This document shows, piece after piece, positions 5,046 to 33,016 of a DNA stretch of 38,118 bases. Origin of the DNA: a virus. Positions within the stretch are counted from its first letter, which is position 1; the number at the start of each line of letters is the position of its first letter. The notes beneath the pieces were generated by a model. The model was given only the letters and a program-made list of their open reading frames with translations. It had not been told where the DNA came from and ran no database searches. Location: positions 1 to 38,118 of IMG/VR virus record IMGVR_UViG_3300042112_000355, one strand, 5' to 3'. A program made the position numbers and the translations under genes.

Positions 5046-5157
5046 GCGTCTCAGCCGAACTAGTCGGCTCGCAGTCGTAGCATAGTCAGCGAGTTAGTCG
5101 AGCGTCTCAGCCGAACTAGTCGGCTCGCAGCCGTAGCATAGTCAGCGAGTTAGTCAG
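5046..5157 (+). repeat. Tandem 56-bp AGTCAGC elements, copies 1 and 2
   Basis: Two head-to-tail 56-bp units differ at very few positions. Each has GCCGA/TCGGC as a short hairpin, CTCGC/GCGAG as an outer pair, and the conserved ATAGTCAGC. Six diverged relatives occur at 11836, 16944, 20242, 21076, 21138 and 21259. They lie between the 4865 gene and the next promoter. Confidence 0.8.
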
Positions 5158-8977: not shown

Positions 8978-9062
8978 CCGCAAACCCTTTGTGCATAAGC
9001 ACTTAGGGCGAGCGGGCGCCGCCGGCCTCGACGTAACTCCTTACGCAGCAACACTTTACATC
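8978..9062 (+). repeat. Palindromic module copy 9
   Basis: Arms CGCAAAC...ACTTAGGG and CGTAACT...CTTTACATC. Core CGAGCGGGCGCCGCCGGCCTCG-like, with CGAG/CTCG ends. A8T5 tract follows. Confidence 0.85.
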
Positions 9063-9089
9063 TAAAAAAAATTTTTCTAATGTTGAGGC

Positions 9090-9118
9090 TTGACAAGAGT
9101 CGATACATAGTGTAGACT
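9090..9118 (+). promoter_or_regulatory. CGATA-class promoter
   Basis: TTGACA, 17 bases starting AGAGTCGATA, TAGACT. Confidence 0.82.
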
Positions 9119-9597: not shown

Positions 9598-9683
9598 GCC
9601 CTAAGTTGTTGCCACGCAATGACTTAGGGTTCGGGGGCGCCGCCCCGCTCGTCGTAAGTGCTTATACCACAACGACTTGCATC
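9598..9683 (+). repeat. Palindromic module copy 10
   Basis: The best arm of all: CCCTAAGT pairs perfectly with ACTTAGGG, extended by a wobble and three more pairs. Core TTCGGGGGCGCCGCCCCG. It lies directly upstream of the large structured RNA promoter. Confidence 0.88.
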
Positions 9684-9710
9684 GCAAAAATATTTTTTCA
9701 AGAAACCCTA

Positions 9711-9738
9711 TTGACAAGCCGATAATAAATAGTAGAAT
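9711..9738 (+). promoter_or_regulatory. CCGATA-class promoter of the large RNA
   Basis: TTGACA, 16 bases starting AGCCGATA, TAGAAT. An A/T tract (9686-9699) lies upstream as a possible UP element. Expected start near 9745. Confidence 0.88.
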
Positions 9739-9744
9739 GATTGA

Positions 9745-10332
9745 AGAACAAGCAAACACTTGTTGGTTGTGTCGGGCCGAGCAGCCGGTAAAAACGGTAG
9801 TTGATGTCCTAGGAAACGTCTTCTACAATCGGTCCTAACAATACAAACTTTCGTGGGTCCATGCTCAGGGACTAGATTGGGATAAGCCATTACGATAAAC
9901 CCCCCGTTCAGCGAAGCAATCGCCGGGGTTGACAACGGGCTTATACGTTGTATAGTAATGCCAATCTATGGGGGATAGCGTCCTCACCACGACCAATACG
10001 AGGACCATCTGTGTACATGCAGGAAAAAATGTGAATAGGGTTTGTTTAAGAACGCGAATGCGTTCCGCCCTATTGTGGTCCTCGCCAATACAACCAGTAA
10101 CCGCTACCTCTGATAAACTGCCTGATATTAGGTACCCGAAAGCAGTGAAGCAGCGTGGGCGGTTTCCATCCGATCCTGACAAGGGGCTATCGTGTGGGTT
10201 ATAGGAACCGGGGCGAAAATGGTTCCGCTGGTTTTAAATCTGCTGATAGTTTCCTTAGATAAGGTAAAACCTTGAGGTTGAAGACAATACAGTACCACGT
10301 ATTCTTCGTAAAACTATCAGTGTGGTGGTACT
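9745..10332 (+). ncRNA. Large multi-pseudoknot structured RNA
   Basis: A roughly 590-nt stretch with no convincing gene but many exact helices: 9747-9752/9759-9764, 9774-9780/9829-9835, 9873-9880/9961-9968, 9888-9893/9955-9960, 9999-10007/10076-10084 (9 bp), 10034-10040/10068-10074, 10050-10055/10060-10065 (GAAT loop), 10092-10097/10228-10233, 10099-10104/10159-10164 and 10204-10209/10221-10226. Pseudoknots: 9898-9903/9925-9930 with 9904-9908/9934-9938; 10105-10109/10130-10134 with 10117-10121/10142-10146; 10243-10249/10314-10320 with 10291-10298/10325-10332. Length, complexity and phage context resemble the ornate GOLLD and ROOL RNA classes, but no class consensus could be recognised. The 3' limit is uncertain. 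Confidence 0.8.
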
Positions 10333-10359
10333 TGACTTGCCGATAAAGAATGATATAAT
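10332..10359 (+). promoter_or_regulatory. CCGATA-class promoter
   Basis: TTGACT, 16 bases starting TGCCGATA, TATAAT. Its -35 touches the last base-paired strand of the large RNA. Starts a six-gene operon to 11617. Confidence 0.88.
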
Positions 10360-11617: not shown

Positions 11618-11690
11618 CAGGATAAGGACTTACGACGAGGCGGCGCCGCCCGATTTGCTCTAACTCTTTACGCACCAACAACTTACGATC
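11604..11690 (+). repeat. Palindromic module copy 11
   Basis: Arms TCCTAAC...ACTTACG and CTCTAAC...ACTTACGATC; core GAGGCGGCGCCGCCCG, containing the perfect palindrome GGCGGCGCCGCC. Arm 1 overlaps the preceding gene end. Confidence 0.85.
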
Positions 11691-11715
11691 AAAATTATTT
11701 TTCTAAAGAATCCTC

Positions 11716-11743
11716 TTGACTATCCCGATAATACTGATATACT
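11716..11743 (+). promoter_or_regulatory. CCGATA-class promoter
   Basis: TTGACT, 16 bases with TCCCGATAA, TATACT. The transcript downstream has no gene until 11931. Confidence 0.82.
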
Positions 11744-12357: not shown

Positions 12358-12729
12358 ATGATCAATCTGCAACTGAGCGTTCGTGAGGCTATGAATCTGG
12401 CTACGAACTGCAATCTGGAAATCTATGAGCGGATCGTGGCCGCTTTTGAGGTGGCGTTGGGTGTGAACCAGAACAAGATGGTGACGATCACCAGAGGTAT
12501 GACTCTGGACAATCGTATCTCTTGCATCAAGGCTATTCGACTCCATACTGGTTGGGGTTTGAAGGAGGCCAAGGAGTGGACGGATTTTCTGGTGGGCGGC
12601 TGGAAGTATGACAAGTGGAATCCTGCTCCTGCTGGTAGGACGCAGAGTATCACTCTCAAGACTCCCGAAGCGGCTGAGAATCTGCTCCGCGATCTTGTGG
12701 GTTTGGGTTGCGAAGGCTATCTTTCGTGA
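12358..12729 (+). CDS. Ribosomal L7/L12 C-terminal-domain-like protein
   Basis: A 123-residue protein. Residues about 52-122 read RISCIKAIRLHTGWGLKEAK...PEAAENLLRDLVGLGCEGYL. This matches the bL12 C-terminal domain pattern K..VIK.(I/V)R..TGLGLKEAK followed by ...A....L...GA. In ribosomes that domain recruits translation GTPases. The flexible hinge is absent and the N-terminal half (1-45) is a different helical region. bL12-like genes are known in phages. A role in capturing elongation factors is inferred. Starts one base after the previous stop. Confidence 0.68.
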   Translation: MINLQLSVREAMNLATNCNLEIYERIVAAFEVALGVNQNKMVTITRGMTLDNRISCIKAIRLHTGWGLKEAKEWTDFLVGGWKYDKWNPAPAGRTQSITLKTPEAAENLLRDLVGLGCEGYLS

Positions 12730-12814
12730 CCTAAAGCCTTGCCACTAAAGCACTTAGGGCGAGGCCGCGGGGCCGCGTTCGCCGTAACTCCTTATGCCAC
12801 AACGACTTAGGAAC
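12729..12814 (+). repeat. Palindromic module copy 12
   Basis: Arms CCTAAAGC...ACTTAGGG and CGTAACT...ACTTAGG; core GAGGCCGCGGGGCCGCG. Confidence 0.85.
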
Positions 12815-12842
12815 AATCCGAAAAAATATTCATGTAACCACC

Positions 12843-12870
12843 TTGACTTGCCGATACTATATGGTAGAAT
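12843..12870 (+). promoter_or_regulatory. CCGATA-class promoter (distal)
   Basis: TTGACT, 16 bases starting TGCCGATA, TAGAAT. First of two tandem promoters ahead of gene 13005. Confidence 0.85.
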
Positions 12871-12929
12871 GATAGCATCACACGACAAGACGCTACCTGA
12901 CTGCAACACACAAAAGTTCAGCCTAGCAC

Positions 12930-13263: not shown

Positions 13264-13292
13264 TTGACACAACTGGACTATGCCAGTATAAA
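13264..13292 (+). promoter_or_regulatory. Promoter with flanking operator-like palindrome
   Basis: TTGACA, 17 bases, TATAAA. CTATGCC (13278-13284) and GGCATAG (13302-13308) form a perfect 7-bp inverted repeat bracketing the -10 and start site, which looks like an operator. Drives the structured RNA and tRNA-Arg. Confidence 0.8.
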
Positions 13293-13298
13293 TAGATT

Positions 13299-13489
13299 TT
13301 AGGCATAGTGCGGCGGGATTCGTCCCGCGTAATGATGTGGGAAATACCCACCTAGCAGAGTCTAACCAACTAATAACCAGCGTGGTTGCTGGGAAGGGGT
13401 CTGCTGCTAGTATATTGCCGATGGTAAAGTGGCTCCACCATCAACCGCATAACCCGCACGGGACGCCGTGGCGGGCCTGCGGCATTGAC
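13299..13489 (+). ncRNA. Structured RNA leading into tRNA-Arg
   Basis: A 190-nt non-coding stretch made of consecutive hairpins: GCGGGA-UUCG-UCCCGC (13313-13328), GTGGG/CCCAC (13337-13351), CTAGCAGA/TCTGCTGCTAG (13352-13359/13400-13410) enclosing CCAGC/GCTGG, and a compound stem CCGCA/TGCGG, CCCGC/GCGGG, ACGG-GACG-CCGT (13445-13482). It runs directly into the tRNA. Class unknown; could be processed by RNase P at the tRNA 5' end. Confidence 0.65.
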
Positions 13490-13615: not shown

Positions 13616-13700
13616 TCCTAAACTCTTTGAGGATAAAGACTTAGAGCGAGCGGGGGCGGCCCGGCTTGACGTAACTCCTTTAGCATCAACGCCTTGCGTC
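13616..13700 (+). repeat. Palindromic module copy 13
   Basis: Arms TCCTAAAC...ACTTAGAG and CGTAACT...CCTTGCGTC; core GCGAGCGGGGGCGGCCCGGC. It follows tRNA-Arg. A 26-codon ORF at 13564 runs into arm 1 and is not called. Confidence 0.82.
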
Positions 13701-13726
13701 AAAAATAATTTCTTCAAGAAAATGCC

Positions 13727-20114: not shown

Positions 20115-20300
20115 ACATTTGTCCTAAGTGCCGATACAATGGAGTGTAAGCCTAGTGGTGGTATGGGTTTAGATAAGATTTAGATTTGACTTATGACTCG
20201 TCTACCAATCCTAAGTAGATTATAAGTCTTAGATTTTTCTTGTATCAGCCTAACCACCGGGTTTGCGGTCGTGGCGATAGTCAGCCAAAAATTAGTGTCC
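20115..20300 (+). ncRNA. Non-coding stretch with RNA-like pairing
   Basis: No gene. TTGTCC then GCCGATACAATG (20119-20142) suggests a weak CCGATA-class promoter. GACTTAT (20188-20194) pairs with ATAAGTC (20222-20228), and GGTGGT near 20158 can pair with ACCACC at 20253. AGTCAGC element copy 5 (20242-20290) lies at the end. Confidence 0.4.
20242..20290 (+). repeat. AGTCAGC element copy 5
   Basis: GTATCAGCC, AACC-ACC-GGGTT hairpin, TTGCGGTCGTGGCGATAGTC AGCCAAAA. Closest to copy 4. Confidence 0.75.
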
Positions 20301-21075: not shown

Positions 21076-21124
21076 GTCTTACCCAATATAACCGGTTCGG
21101 ATTTATGGATACAGTCAGCCAAAA
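21076..21124 (+). repeat. AGTCAGC element copy 6
   Basis: GTCTTACCC, CCGGTTCGG hairpin, ATTTATGGATACAGTCAGCC. Starts 24 bases after tRNA-Ser. Confidence 0.7.
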
Positions 21125-21137
21125 TAGTCACAGAATT

Positions 21138-21184
21138 GTCTCAGCCCTTGTATCGGGATCGTTTTTGTGGTTGTAGTCAGTCAG
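21138..21184 (+). repeat. AGTCAGC element copy 7
   Basis: GTCTCAGCCC, TATCGGGATCG, GTGGTTGTAGTCAGTCAG. Starts with the same GTCTCAGCC as copies 1 and 2. Confidence 0.68.
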
Positions 21185-21211
21185 ATTAGATGATCTTTAA
21201 GAATACTTTTT

Positions 21212-21240
21212 TGACTTTGCGAAATCGGCCACTATCATAA
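21212..21240 (+). promoter_or_regulatory. Promoter
   Basis: TTGACT, 17 bases with AATCGGCC, CATAAT. Downstream there is no gene until 21421. Confidence 0.65.
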
Positions 21241-21246
21241 TGTAAT

Positions 21247-21400
21247 GAGGGATGGAATTGTCACACTCCATCTTGTCTATTCGGTTTTATGGGAACAGTC
21301 AGTCAAAATGATACTATTGGCACAAACGGTAACTATTGTTAAGAAACCACTTTGTTCATGATGATATATCCAGACTAATAGTTTGTGGTGGCATCCTATA
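21247..21400 (+). ncRNA. Short RNA with H-type pseudoknot
   Basis: After the 21212 promoter: GATGGA/TCCATC hairpin (from 21251), AGTCAGC element copy 8 (21259-21308), then a pseudoknot: AACTATT (21331-21337) with AATAGTT (21377-21383) and ACCAC (21346-21350) with GTGGT (21385-21389). The interleaved order repeats the 3' end of the large RNA at 10243-10332. Confidence 0.5.
21259..21308 (+). repeat. AGTCAGC element copy 8 (diverged)
   Basis: GTCACACTCC, TATTCGGTTTTATGGGAACA, GTCAGTCAAAA. Weakest copy. Confidence 0.55.
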
Positions 21401-31993: not shown

Positions 31994-33016
31994 ATGAGAA
32001 AACTAGCTAGTATACAAACTGTTAAATATGTTAAACCTATACCAGATGCAGACAGCATAGAAACTGTGGGCGTTTTAGGTTGGGAGGTTGTTACAAAGAA
32101 GGGTGAGTTCCAACCCAATGATCTCTGCGTATTTTTTGAGATTGATAGTTTACTTCCAGAAGTTCCAGAGTTTGAATTTCTTCGTAAGAGTTGTTGGAAT
32201 GATAGTTTAAAAAAGTATAGACTCAAAACAGTAAAGTTGCGTAAACAACTATCTCAAGGATTAGCATTACCCACAAGTGTCTTTCCTATACTAGCAGGAT
32301 TGACTGCTGGGGCCGATGTTACTGACCTATTAGGAATAGAAAAATATGAACCTCCAATTCCAGCACAGATTCAAGGAGATGCAAAGAGTTTTAGTTGGCC
32401 CATAAGTAAGACCGATGAAACAAGAGTGCAGTTAGATGATGAATACGGATTTATTGAAAGACTAACCGGACAACCATACTATATTAGCCTTAAACTTGAT
32501 GGAACATCTAGTACATTTTTGATTGATCCTAAAGACGAAAGTTATCATGTTTGTGGACGTAATTATAGTTATAAAGAAAGTGAACATCATAAATTTTGGG
32601 TATTGAGTCGAAAGTACAAAATAGAAGAAGGACTACGATGGTTTTGGAATAATGGAGTTAAAATAGCAATTCAAGGAGAATGTGCAGGCCCAGGTATACA
32701 ACAAAACAAATTAGGTTTATCCTCTCATGATTTGTTTGTTTTTAATGTTATTGATATTCCAACTAATCGTAAGTTATGTTTAGAGGATGCTATGGGTGTG
32801 GTAGAGCGTCTTGGGTTGAAATTTGTGCCGATAGTTGACAAAGGCTCAAGTTTCAGTTATACTAAGACCGATCTACTAGAGATGGCGAAGGGCAAATATA
32901 AAGAACACTTTGAGTCTGCTAAACCAAATCAAGATCGTGAAGGAATAGTAATACGAAGCCTTTGCGGAGAAGTTAGTTTTAAGGCTATCAATAACGACTT
33001 TTTATTGAAAGAATAA
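31994..33016 (+). CDS. RNA ligase, DRB0094 (Rnl5) family
   Basis: 340 residues. N-terminal OB-type domain (about 1-120) precedes the adenylyltransferase domain, the order known for Deinococcus DRB0094. The nucleotidyltransferase motifs: K-L-D-G (K167 is the adenylation lysine), GECAGPGIQ (motif IIIa region), REGIVIR (motif IV) and SFKAINNDFLLK (motif V). Seals 3'-OH/5'-phosphate RNA breaks, e.g. in cleaved tRNA. Starts one base after the HAD gene stop. Confidence 0.93.
   Translation: MRKLASIQTVKYVKPIPDADSIETVGVLGWEVVTKKGEFQPNDLCVFFEIDSLLPEVPEFEFLRKSCWNDSLKKYRLKTVKLRKQLSQGLALPTSVFPILAGLTAGADVTDLLGIEKYEPPIPAQIQGDAKSFSWPISKTDETRVQLDDEYGFIERLTGQPYYISLKLDGTSSTFLIDPKDESYHVCGRNYSYKESEHHKFWVLSRKYKIEEGLRWFWNNGVKIAIQGECAGPGIQQNKLGLSSHDLFVFNVIDIPTNRKLCLEDAMGVVERLGLKFVPIVDKGSSFSYTKTDLLEMAKGKYKEHFESAKPNQDREGIVIRSLCGEVSFKAINNDFLLKE

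Follow-up and report, generated by a model that had tools for sequence, protein, structure and literature searches.

The window, a 38,118-base IMG/VR virus record from an uncultured phage, was found to carry an RNA locus of ~590 nt at 9745-10332; this locus and all of its features given below are on the + strand. The promoter TTGACA-16-TAGAAT (9711-9738) lay upstream of it, and the promoter of the next gene, TTGACT-16-TATAAT (10332-10359), marked its downstream boundary. From 5′ to 3′, the RNA comprised an exchangeable 5′ module, which we have designated type A (9745-9836), the linker CAAUACAA (9839-9846), a four-way junction termed domain I (9851-9992), the linker CCAAUAC (9993-9999), an optional inserted hairpin module (10000-10084), the linker CCAAUACAA (10085-10093), a second junction termed domain II (10092-10233), and domain III, which is the 3′ module of type C (10243-10332). 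An earlier note on this DNA had placed a strong promoter at 9711-9738. An equivalent promoter was present upstream of the RNA in 51/53 homologues, compared to 3/53 when shuffled, and its positions clustered at -127, -121 and -39 relative to domain I, the homologues of the -39 class being those that lacked a 5′ module. The nearest tRNA was 3 kb from the RNA in the window and at most 3 kb away in 48/59 loci (median 2.2 kb). The neighbouring tRNAs were on the strand of the RNA in every case listed, and in some homologues tRNAs were attached to the RNA itself. In the Vibrio phage ICP1 the most abundant transcript comes from ORF-less space of this kind (PMC7567579), so that, by analogy, strong expression of the window RNA would be plausible.

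The earlier note had proposed that homologues be collected from phage metagenomes and analysed for covariation. Homologous loci were gathered via two neighbouring proteins, which gave 86 loci from viral contigs, and a scan with the RNA sequence found it to be present in 68/87 loci, some of these being identical contigs. A DNA pattern taken from the most conserved stretch matched 50 viral contigs and, in a bacterial genome collection, one 4.6-kb contig from a Lake Lanier metagenome bin. Merging of sequences with ≥97% identity left 61 distinct homologues in uncultured phage contigs, and covariation was detected in domains I and II. Additionally, a covariance model of domain I picked out a single locus per record in 25 long phage records of 95-238 kb; in two of them a second domain I lay in tandem. 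Megablast of the first 25 kb of the window against 50,697 phage records found nothing. As a blastn search of cultured phages with the RNA returned chance 29-base matches or nothing, and the terminase of a relative matched at ~25% identity, these phages have no close cultured relative. By these sequence comparisons the RNA is a conserved feature of a group of large phages, all uncultured.

The locus had been described in the earlier note as a large, ornate non-coding RNA without a credible gene, and both parts of this description were borne out. Over the stretches spanned by the three ORFs of at least 60 amino acids, stop codons were found in every frame in 42, 50 and 36 of 55 homologues respectively, which rules out a coding region. 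The minimum free energy z-score against shuffles was -3.44 on the + strand and -1.92 on the - strand. In the homologue alignments, G-U cells exceeded A-C cells by 324:44; the functional RNA is therefore the + strand, and the opposite strand was ruled out by this asymmetry. The note had also listed at least ten exact helices. The window RNA contained 41 exact helices of ≥6 bp, compared to a mean of 29.9 and a maximum of 37 in mononucleotide shuffles, so the helix count is itself weak evidence; structure beyond chance was established by the folding energy and by covariation. As the raw count was modestly above shuffles, the case for structure depends on the homologues, whose structural alignments were built from sequence alone.

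Domain I consisted of helices P1 (9852-9856/9987-9991), P1a (9857-9860/9869-9872), P2 (9873-9880/9961-9968), P3 (9888-9893/9955-9960), P4 (9898-9903/9925-9930), P5 (9932-9937/9946-9951) and P6 (9969-9974/9981-9986), of which P4 is an exchangeable cassette. The junction of P2 and P3 was joined to the loop of P5 by a pseudoknot, AUAAGC/GCUUAU (~9882-9887/9939-9944). An alignment of 54 sequences over 46 pairs, pseudoknot included, revealed 91.5% of cells to be paired, and this fell to 34-44% when the partner was slid by 1-3 columns. Changes on both sides were found in 24 pairs, amounting to 161 such cells compared to 47.9 when shuffled. The pseudoknot was paired in 99.7% of cells and showed compensatory changes in three of its pairs (AU to GC and the reverse in two, CG to GC and the reverse in one). 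The four-way junction has the order of arms found in a tRNA, which may be taken as an analogy only.

Domain II was made up of P7 (10092-10097/10228-10233), P8 (10099-10104/10159-10164), the cassette P9 (10165-10168/10195-10198) and P10, which has a conserved loop (10205-10209/10221-10226). Its core also covaried: the 21 pairs were 96.5% paired and both-side changes were present in 7 pairs, compared to 1.8 when shuffled. In simulations along the tree, the column pairs 9888:9960, 9886:9940, 10208:10222 and 9935:9948 lay above all null values; 9886:9940 belongs to the pseudoknot of domain I. Some of the top column pairs (10106-10153) were not counted, being artefacts of alignment between different P8x cassettes. 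Domain III was available from eight sequences. Its helix P11 (10243-10252/10311-10320) was 100% paired, a second pseudoknot interleaved with P11 (10291-10298/10325-10332) was 93.3% paired, and compensatory change was seen in 4 pairs of the domain. No third conserved pseudoknot was found in the comparison of homologues; of the three claimed in the earlier note, the one in domain I is proven, that of the 3′ domain is supported by its eight sequences, and the remaining one is unsupported.

The domains were connected by CAAUACAA linkers or close variants of them. The linker following domain I is the left copy, and that preceding domain II the right copy, of a linker duplicated around the insert. 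The type A 5′ module was common to 10/53 homologues, the others having different 5′ modules or none, and in the window it formed a hairpin, GAUGU-CCUAGGAA-ACGUC, with the palindromic loop CCUAGG at 9808-9813. The optional hairpin at 10000-10084 (stem 9999-10007/10076-10084) was found in 3/53 typed homologues, namely the window, L046 and L047; the others had a different insert or none. This bears on a switch that the earlier note had suggested between a GTCCTC/GAGGAC pairing and the helix 9999-10007/10076-10084. GUCCUC lies within P6, which is a conserved helix, and GAGGAC sits in the optional hairpin of those three homologues. The switch was rejected as not conserved because its partner belongs to an optional element.

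Typing of the modules separated the 5′ sequences into 17 clusters, P4 into 12 types, the inserts into 17, P8x into 7 and P9 into 11; the 3′ ends were of several kinds, whole domains among them. All four combinations of two types at two positions (four-gamete combinations) were frequent, with 31 quartets for P4 and P8x as an example, from which recombination of the cassettes follows. An alignment of L004 with the window showed 99.4% identity over 9838-9999 and 97.7% over 10085-10170, while most neighbouring stretches were 68-83% identical; the insert was missing from L004 and the breakpoints were at the linkers. Additional copies of domains or inserts were found in L024, L010, L103 and L044. 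In L044 (4633-5748) a small ORF was present within the RNA, flanked by two CAAUAC linkers. The single exception to free cassette assortment was P1a and P6, the types of which never recombined apart, although P4, which lies between them, recombined with both; this suggests a tertiary contact between the P1a and P6 loops. As judged from the alignments, the peripheral hairpins are cassettes that have been swapped between phages around two conserved cores.

Within domain II, the P8x cassette (10105-10158) ends in an apical loop with the palindrome GGUACC (10131-10136), for which we propose a homotypic kissing interaction. Differing palindromes of 6-8 nt were present in the P8x apical loop in 7/10 loop types; the palindromes were GGUACC, UGCUAGCA, UUCAUGAA, UGAUCA, UUCCGGAA and UGCGCA. 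With related types counted once, palindromes were present in 6/9 loop types (shuffle P = ~5e-5). We saw the pattern first and tested it afterwards, having examined about six hairpin classes, so the corrected P is nearer 3e-4. The test was confined to apical loops because the longest palindrome was uninformative when taken from P8x as a whole, and the P4 and P9 loops showed no such palindromes. Type E has a 3-nt loop with no palindrome, and type F2 and the shortened loop of L053 were without a palindromic hexamer; with these exceptions, the self-complementarity of the loop persisted while its letters changed. In GOLLD and OLE RNAs, covarying palindromic loops make symmetric bridges between subunits (PMC12286853). 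Because the P8x palindromes vary as these subunit-joining loops do, self-association is favoured, and the RNA probably associates with its own copies. The mosaic of exchangeable hairpins, together with the CAAUACAA linkers and the palindromic loop, is the main novelty of this RNA.

To our knowledge, few large ornate phage RNAs have been described, and none with a known function. The earlier note had likened the RNA to GOLLD and ROOL, perhaps as a new class, and had proposed a search against Rfam covariance models including those two. This search gave no match for the window RNA (9745-10332) even at E ≤ 10, including none to tmRNA, RNase P RNA or group I/II introns, and ARAGORN found no tmRNA. 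GOLLD and ROOL were likewise unmatched at E ≤ 10 in the homologues L020 and L123, and at the gathering threshold in 10 loci. Apart from tRNAs located terminally in some homologues, no Rfam family was found with the RNA, and no Rfam link connected the window RNA to any RNA shown to oligomerise. The likeness that the note had drawn holds in that the RNA is phage-encoded, structured and near tRNAs, with its own promoter and no Rfam family. It is best read as a new GOLLD/ROOL-like family of phage RNA that falls outside both families by their Rfam models.

GOLLD RNA forms a 14-mer RNA nanocage and ROOL RNA an octameric one, the solved ROOL being 659 nt (PMC12286853). Like the window RNA, GOLLD is a large phage RNA found near tRNAs and sometimes bearing them, and its conserved and variable domains evolve separately. 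In GOLLD the subunits are joined by symmetric self-kissing loops whose palindromic letters vary (PMC12286853), much as proposed for P8x. It differs in domain order and sequence, with no covariance-model match at E ≤ 10, whereas the window RNA has two conserved cores of ~140 nt, arms that are swapped singly and a repeated CAAUACAA linker motif. GOLLD also has a universally conserved 3′ region and a less conserved 5′ region; the window RNA instead varies in its 5′, middle and 3′ modules. ROOL is of similar size, with a phage setting near tRNAs and an ornate pseudoknotted fold, but it gave no covariance-model match, and its 5′ and 3′ regions are intertwined and co-evolving (PMC12286853) whereas the modules of the window RNA recombine freely. 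OLE, a dimeric RNA that is likewise large and ornate, has a symmetric palindromic kissing loop with the variants GGCC/GAUC/AGCU (PMC12286853). It differs in being bacterial and protein-associated, and showed no sequence or model match to the window RNA.

What the RNA does can be approached through its surroundings. A promoter lay between the RNA and the next ORF in 32/54 homologues, window included, and was absent from the other 22. These 22 homologues run into an ORF that has a Shine-Dalgarno sequence, with the start codon (ATG) 26-29 nt past the end of domain II in 14 of them and the linker motif AAUACAA abutting AGGA. Such an arrangement would fit a cis-acting 5′ leader, that is, an untranslated leader that controls translation of the next gene or shields the mRNA from decay. 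The downstream ORFs, however, differed among the phages and were of several unrelated kinds while the RNA itself was conserved, which makes a gene-specific leader unlikely. As the downstream genes vary and 32/54 homologues have an intervening new promoter, the conserved unit is the RNA. We consider the leader reading unlikely, and give similarly little weight to the RNA being a decoy or sponge. Its variable hairpins would then look like the targets of RNA-binding proteins or defences of the host, and their exchange would reflect an arms race. A decoy would account for the speed at which peripheral hairpins are exchanged while the core stays constant, for the terminal tRNAs, or units like them, of some homologues and for the P6 loops of types B and C, which were T-loop-like (UGCGAUU, UUGGAUU or close variants) in 11/53 homologues. 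By itself, it leaves both the recurrent palindromes in one loop and the strongly conserved pseudoknotted core unexplained.

The attached tRNAs could also point to a role in carrying phage tRNAs or as a scaffold for their processing: tRNA-Gly ends beside domain I in L134, in L020, L024 and L010 the 3′ domain has tRNA-like units after it, and GOLLD linkers contain tRNAs (PMC12286853). Most homologues, the window included, have no tRNA inside the RNA, and this role appears improbable. That there is no functional RNA at all, the locus being chance structure or an unrecognised coding region, could draw on the modest helix count, but it is contradicted by the covariation, the conserved promoter, the strand-specific G-U excess and the broken frames, and we regard its probability as negligible.

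The reading we prefer, to which we would assign a probability of roughly 0.55, is that the locus encodes a free-standing, trans-acting RNA of ~590 nt with its own promoter, serving as a scaffold that associates with its own copies. GOLLD and ROOL RNAs are thought to act in trans, and this RNA would do likewise. The self-complementary loop of the P8x arm would kiss the identical loop on another copy, the conserved cores would form the body of the particle, and cargo or lineage-specific surfaces would be supplied by the variable arms, along with the tRNAs that are occasionally attached. By exchanging cassettes, the phages would change the self-recognition loop and the arms but retain the core. 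A bolder extension of this scaffold model, which we hold as tentative and on balance doubtful, is a self-recognising, combinatorial RNA in which swapped kissing-loop cassettes let the RNA of each lineage assemble with its own kind only. If true, the RNA would be an identity tag, or a lineage-specific RNA particle diversified by cassette shuffling. The locus brings one more family to the large ornate phage RNAs, with a proven pseudoknotted core and with many variants and domain swaps that occur in nature. These natural chimaeras are a ready set for testing what RNA-only assembly requires and for what reason phages retain RNAs of this kind. Whole-hairpin exchange at a short linker is documented here as a way in which a structured RNA evolves, comparable to protein domain shuffling.

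Several other elements were observed in the window and its relatives. A ~65-nt, nearly invariant RNA element (GGGCCGYUGGCAGAAUGAUAUCAAAG..) with a covarying closing stem was found among 65 viral contigs, for example at 6512-6608 of L016, 7919-8015 of L004 and 82-178 of L066. It was found as the 5′ module of the large RNA, standing alone under a promoter of its own, and immediately 5′ of tRNA-Lys. It had no Rfam match in the loci scanned and is possibly a new ribozyme or processing element. Stand-alone copies of it in relatives were followed by a repeat resembling a hairpin, with TAGTCAGC(G/C)AAA or close variants at its end, which was present in the window at 5077-5150, 20270-20295 and 21095-21310. 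The region between 19910 and 21912 of the window, 2 kb without ORFs of 60 amino acids, contained tRNA-Ser(act) and TAGTCAGC-type repeats, and may hold further non-coding RNAs. A dispersed repeat of ~80-130 bases (CCTAAGT..ACTTAGG type) preceded promoters in many copies per phage, those in the window being at 8982-9094, 9609-9741, 11622-11721, 12727-12873 and 13620-13714. A Pistol self-cleaving ribozyme (Rfam RF02679, 55.7 bits) was located between a gene and tRNA-Arg at 13272-13334 of the window, and was also found in L112 and L012. Finally, the window encoded an RNA ligase of the PHA02142/RNA_ligase family (31994-33016), with ~40% identity to its counterpart in Microcystis phage Mic1.
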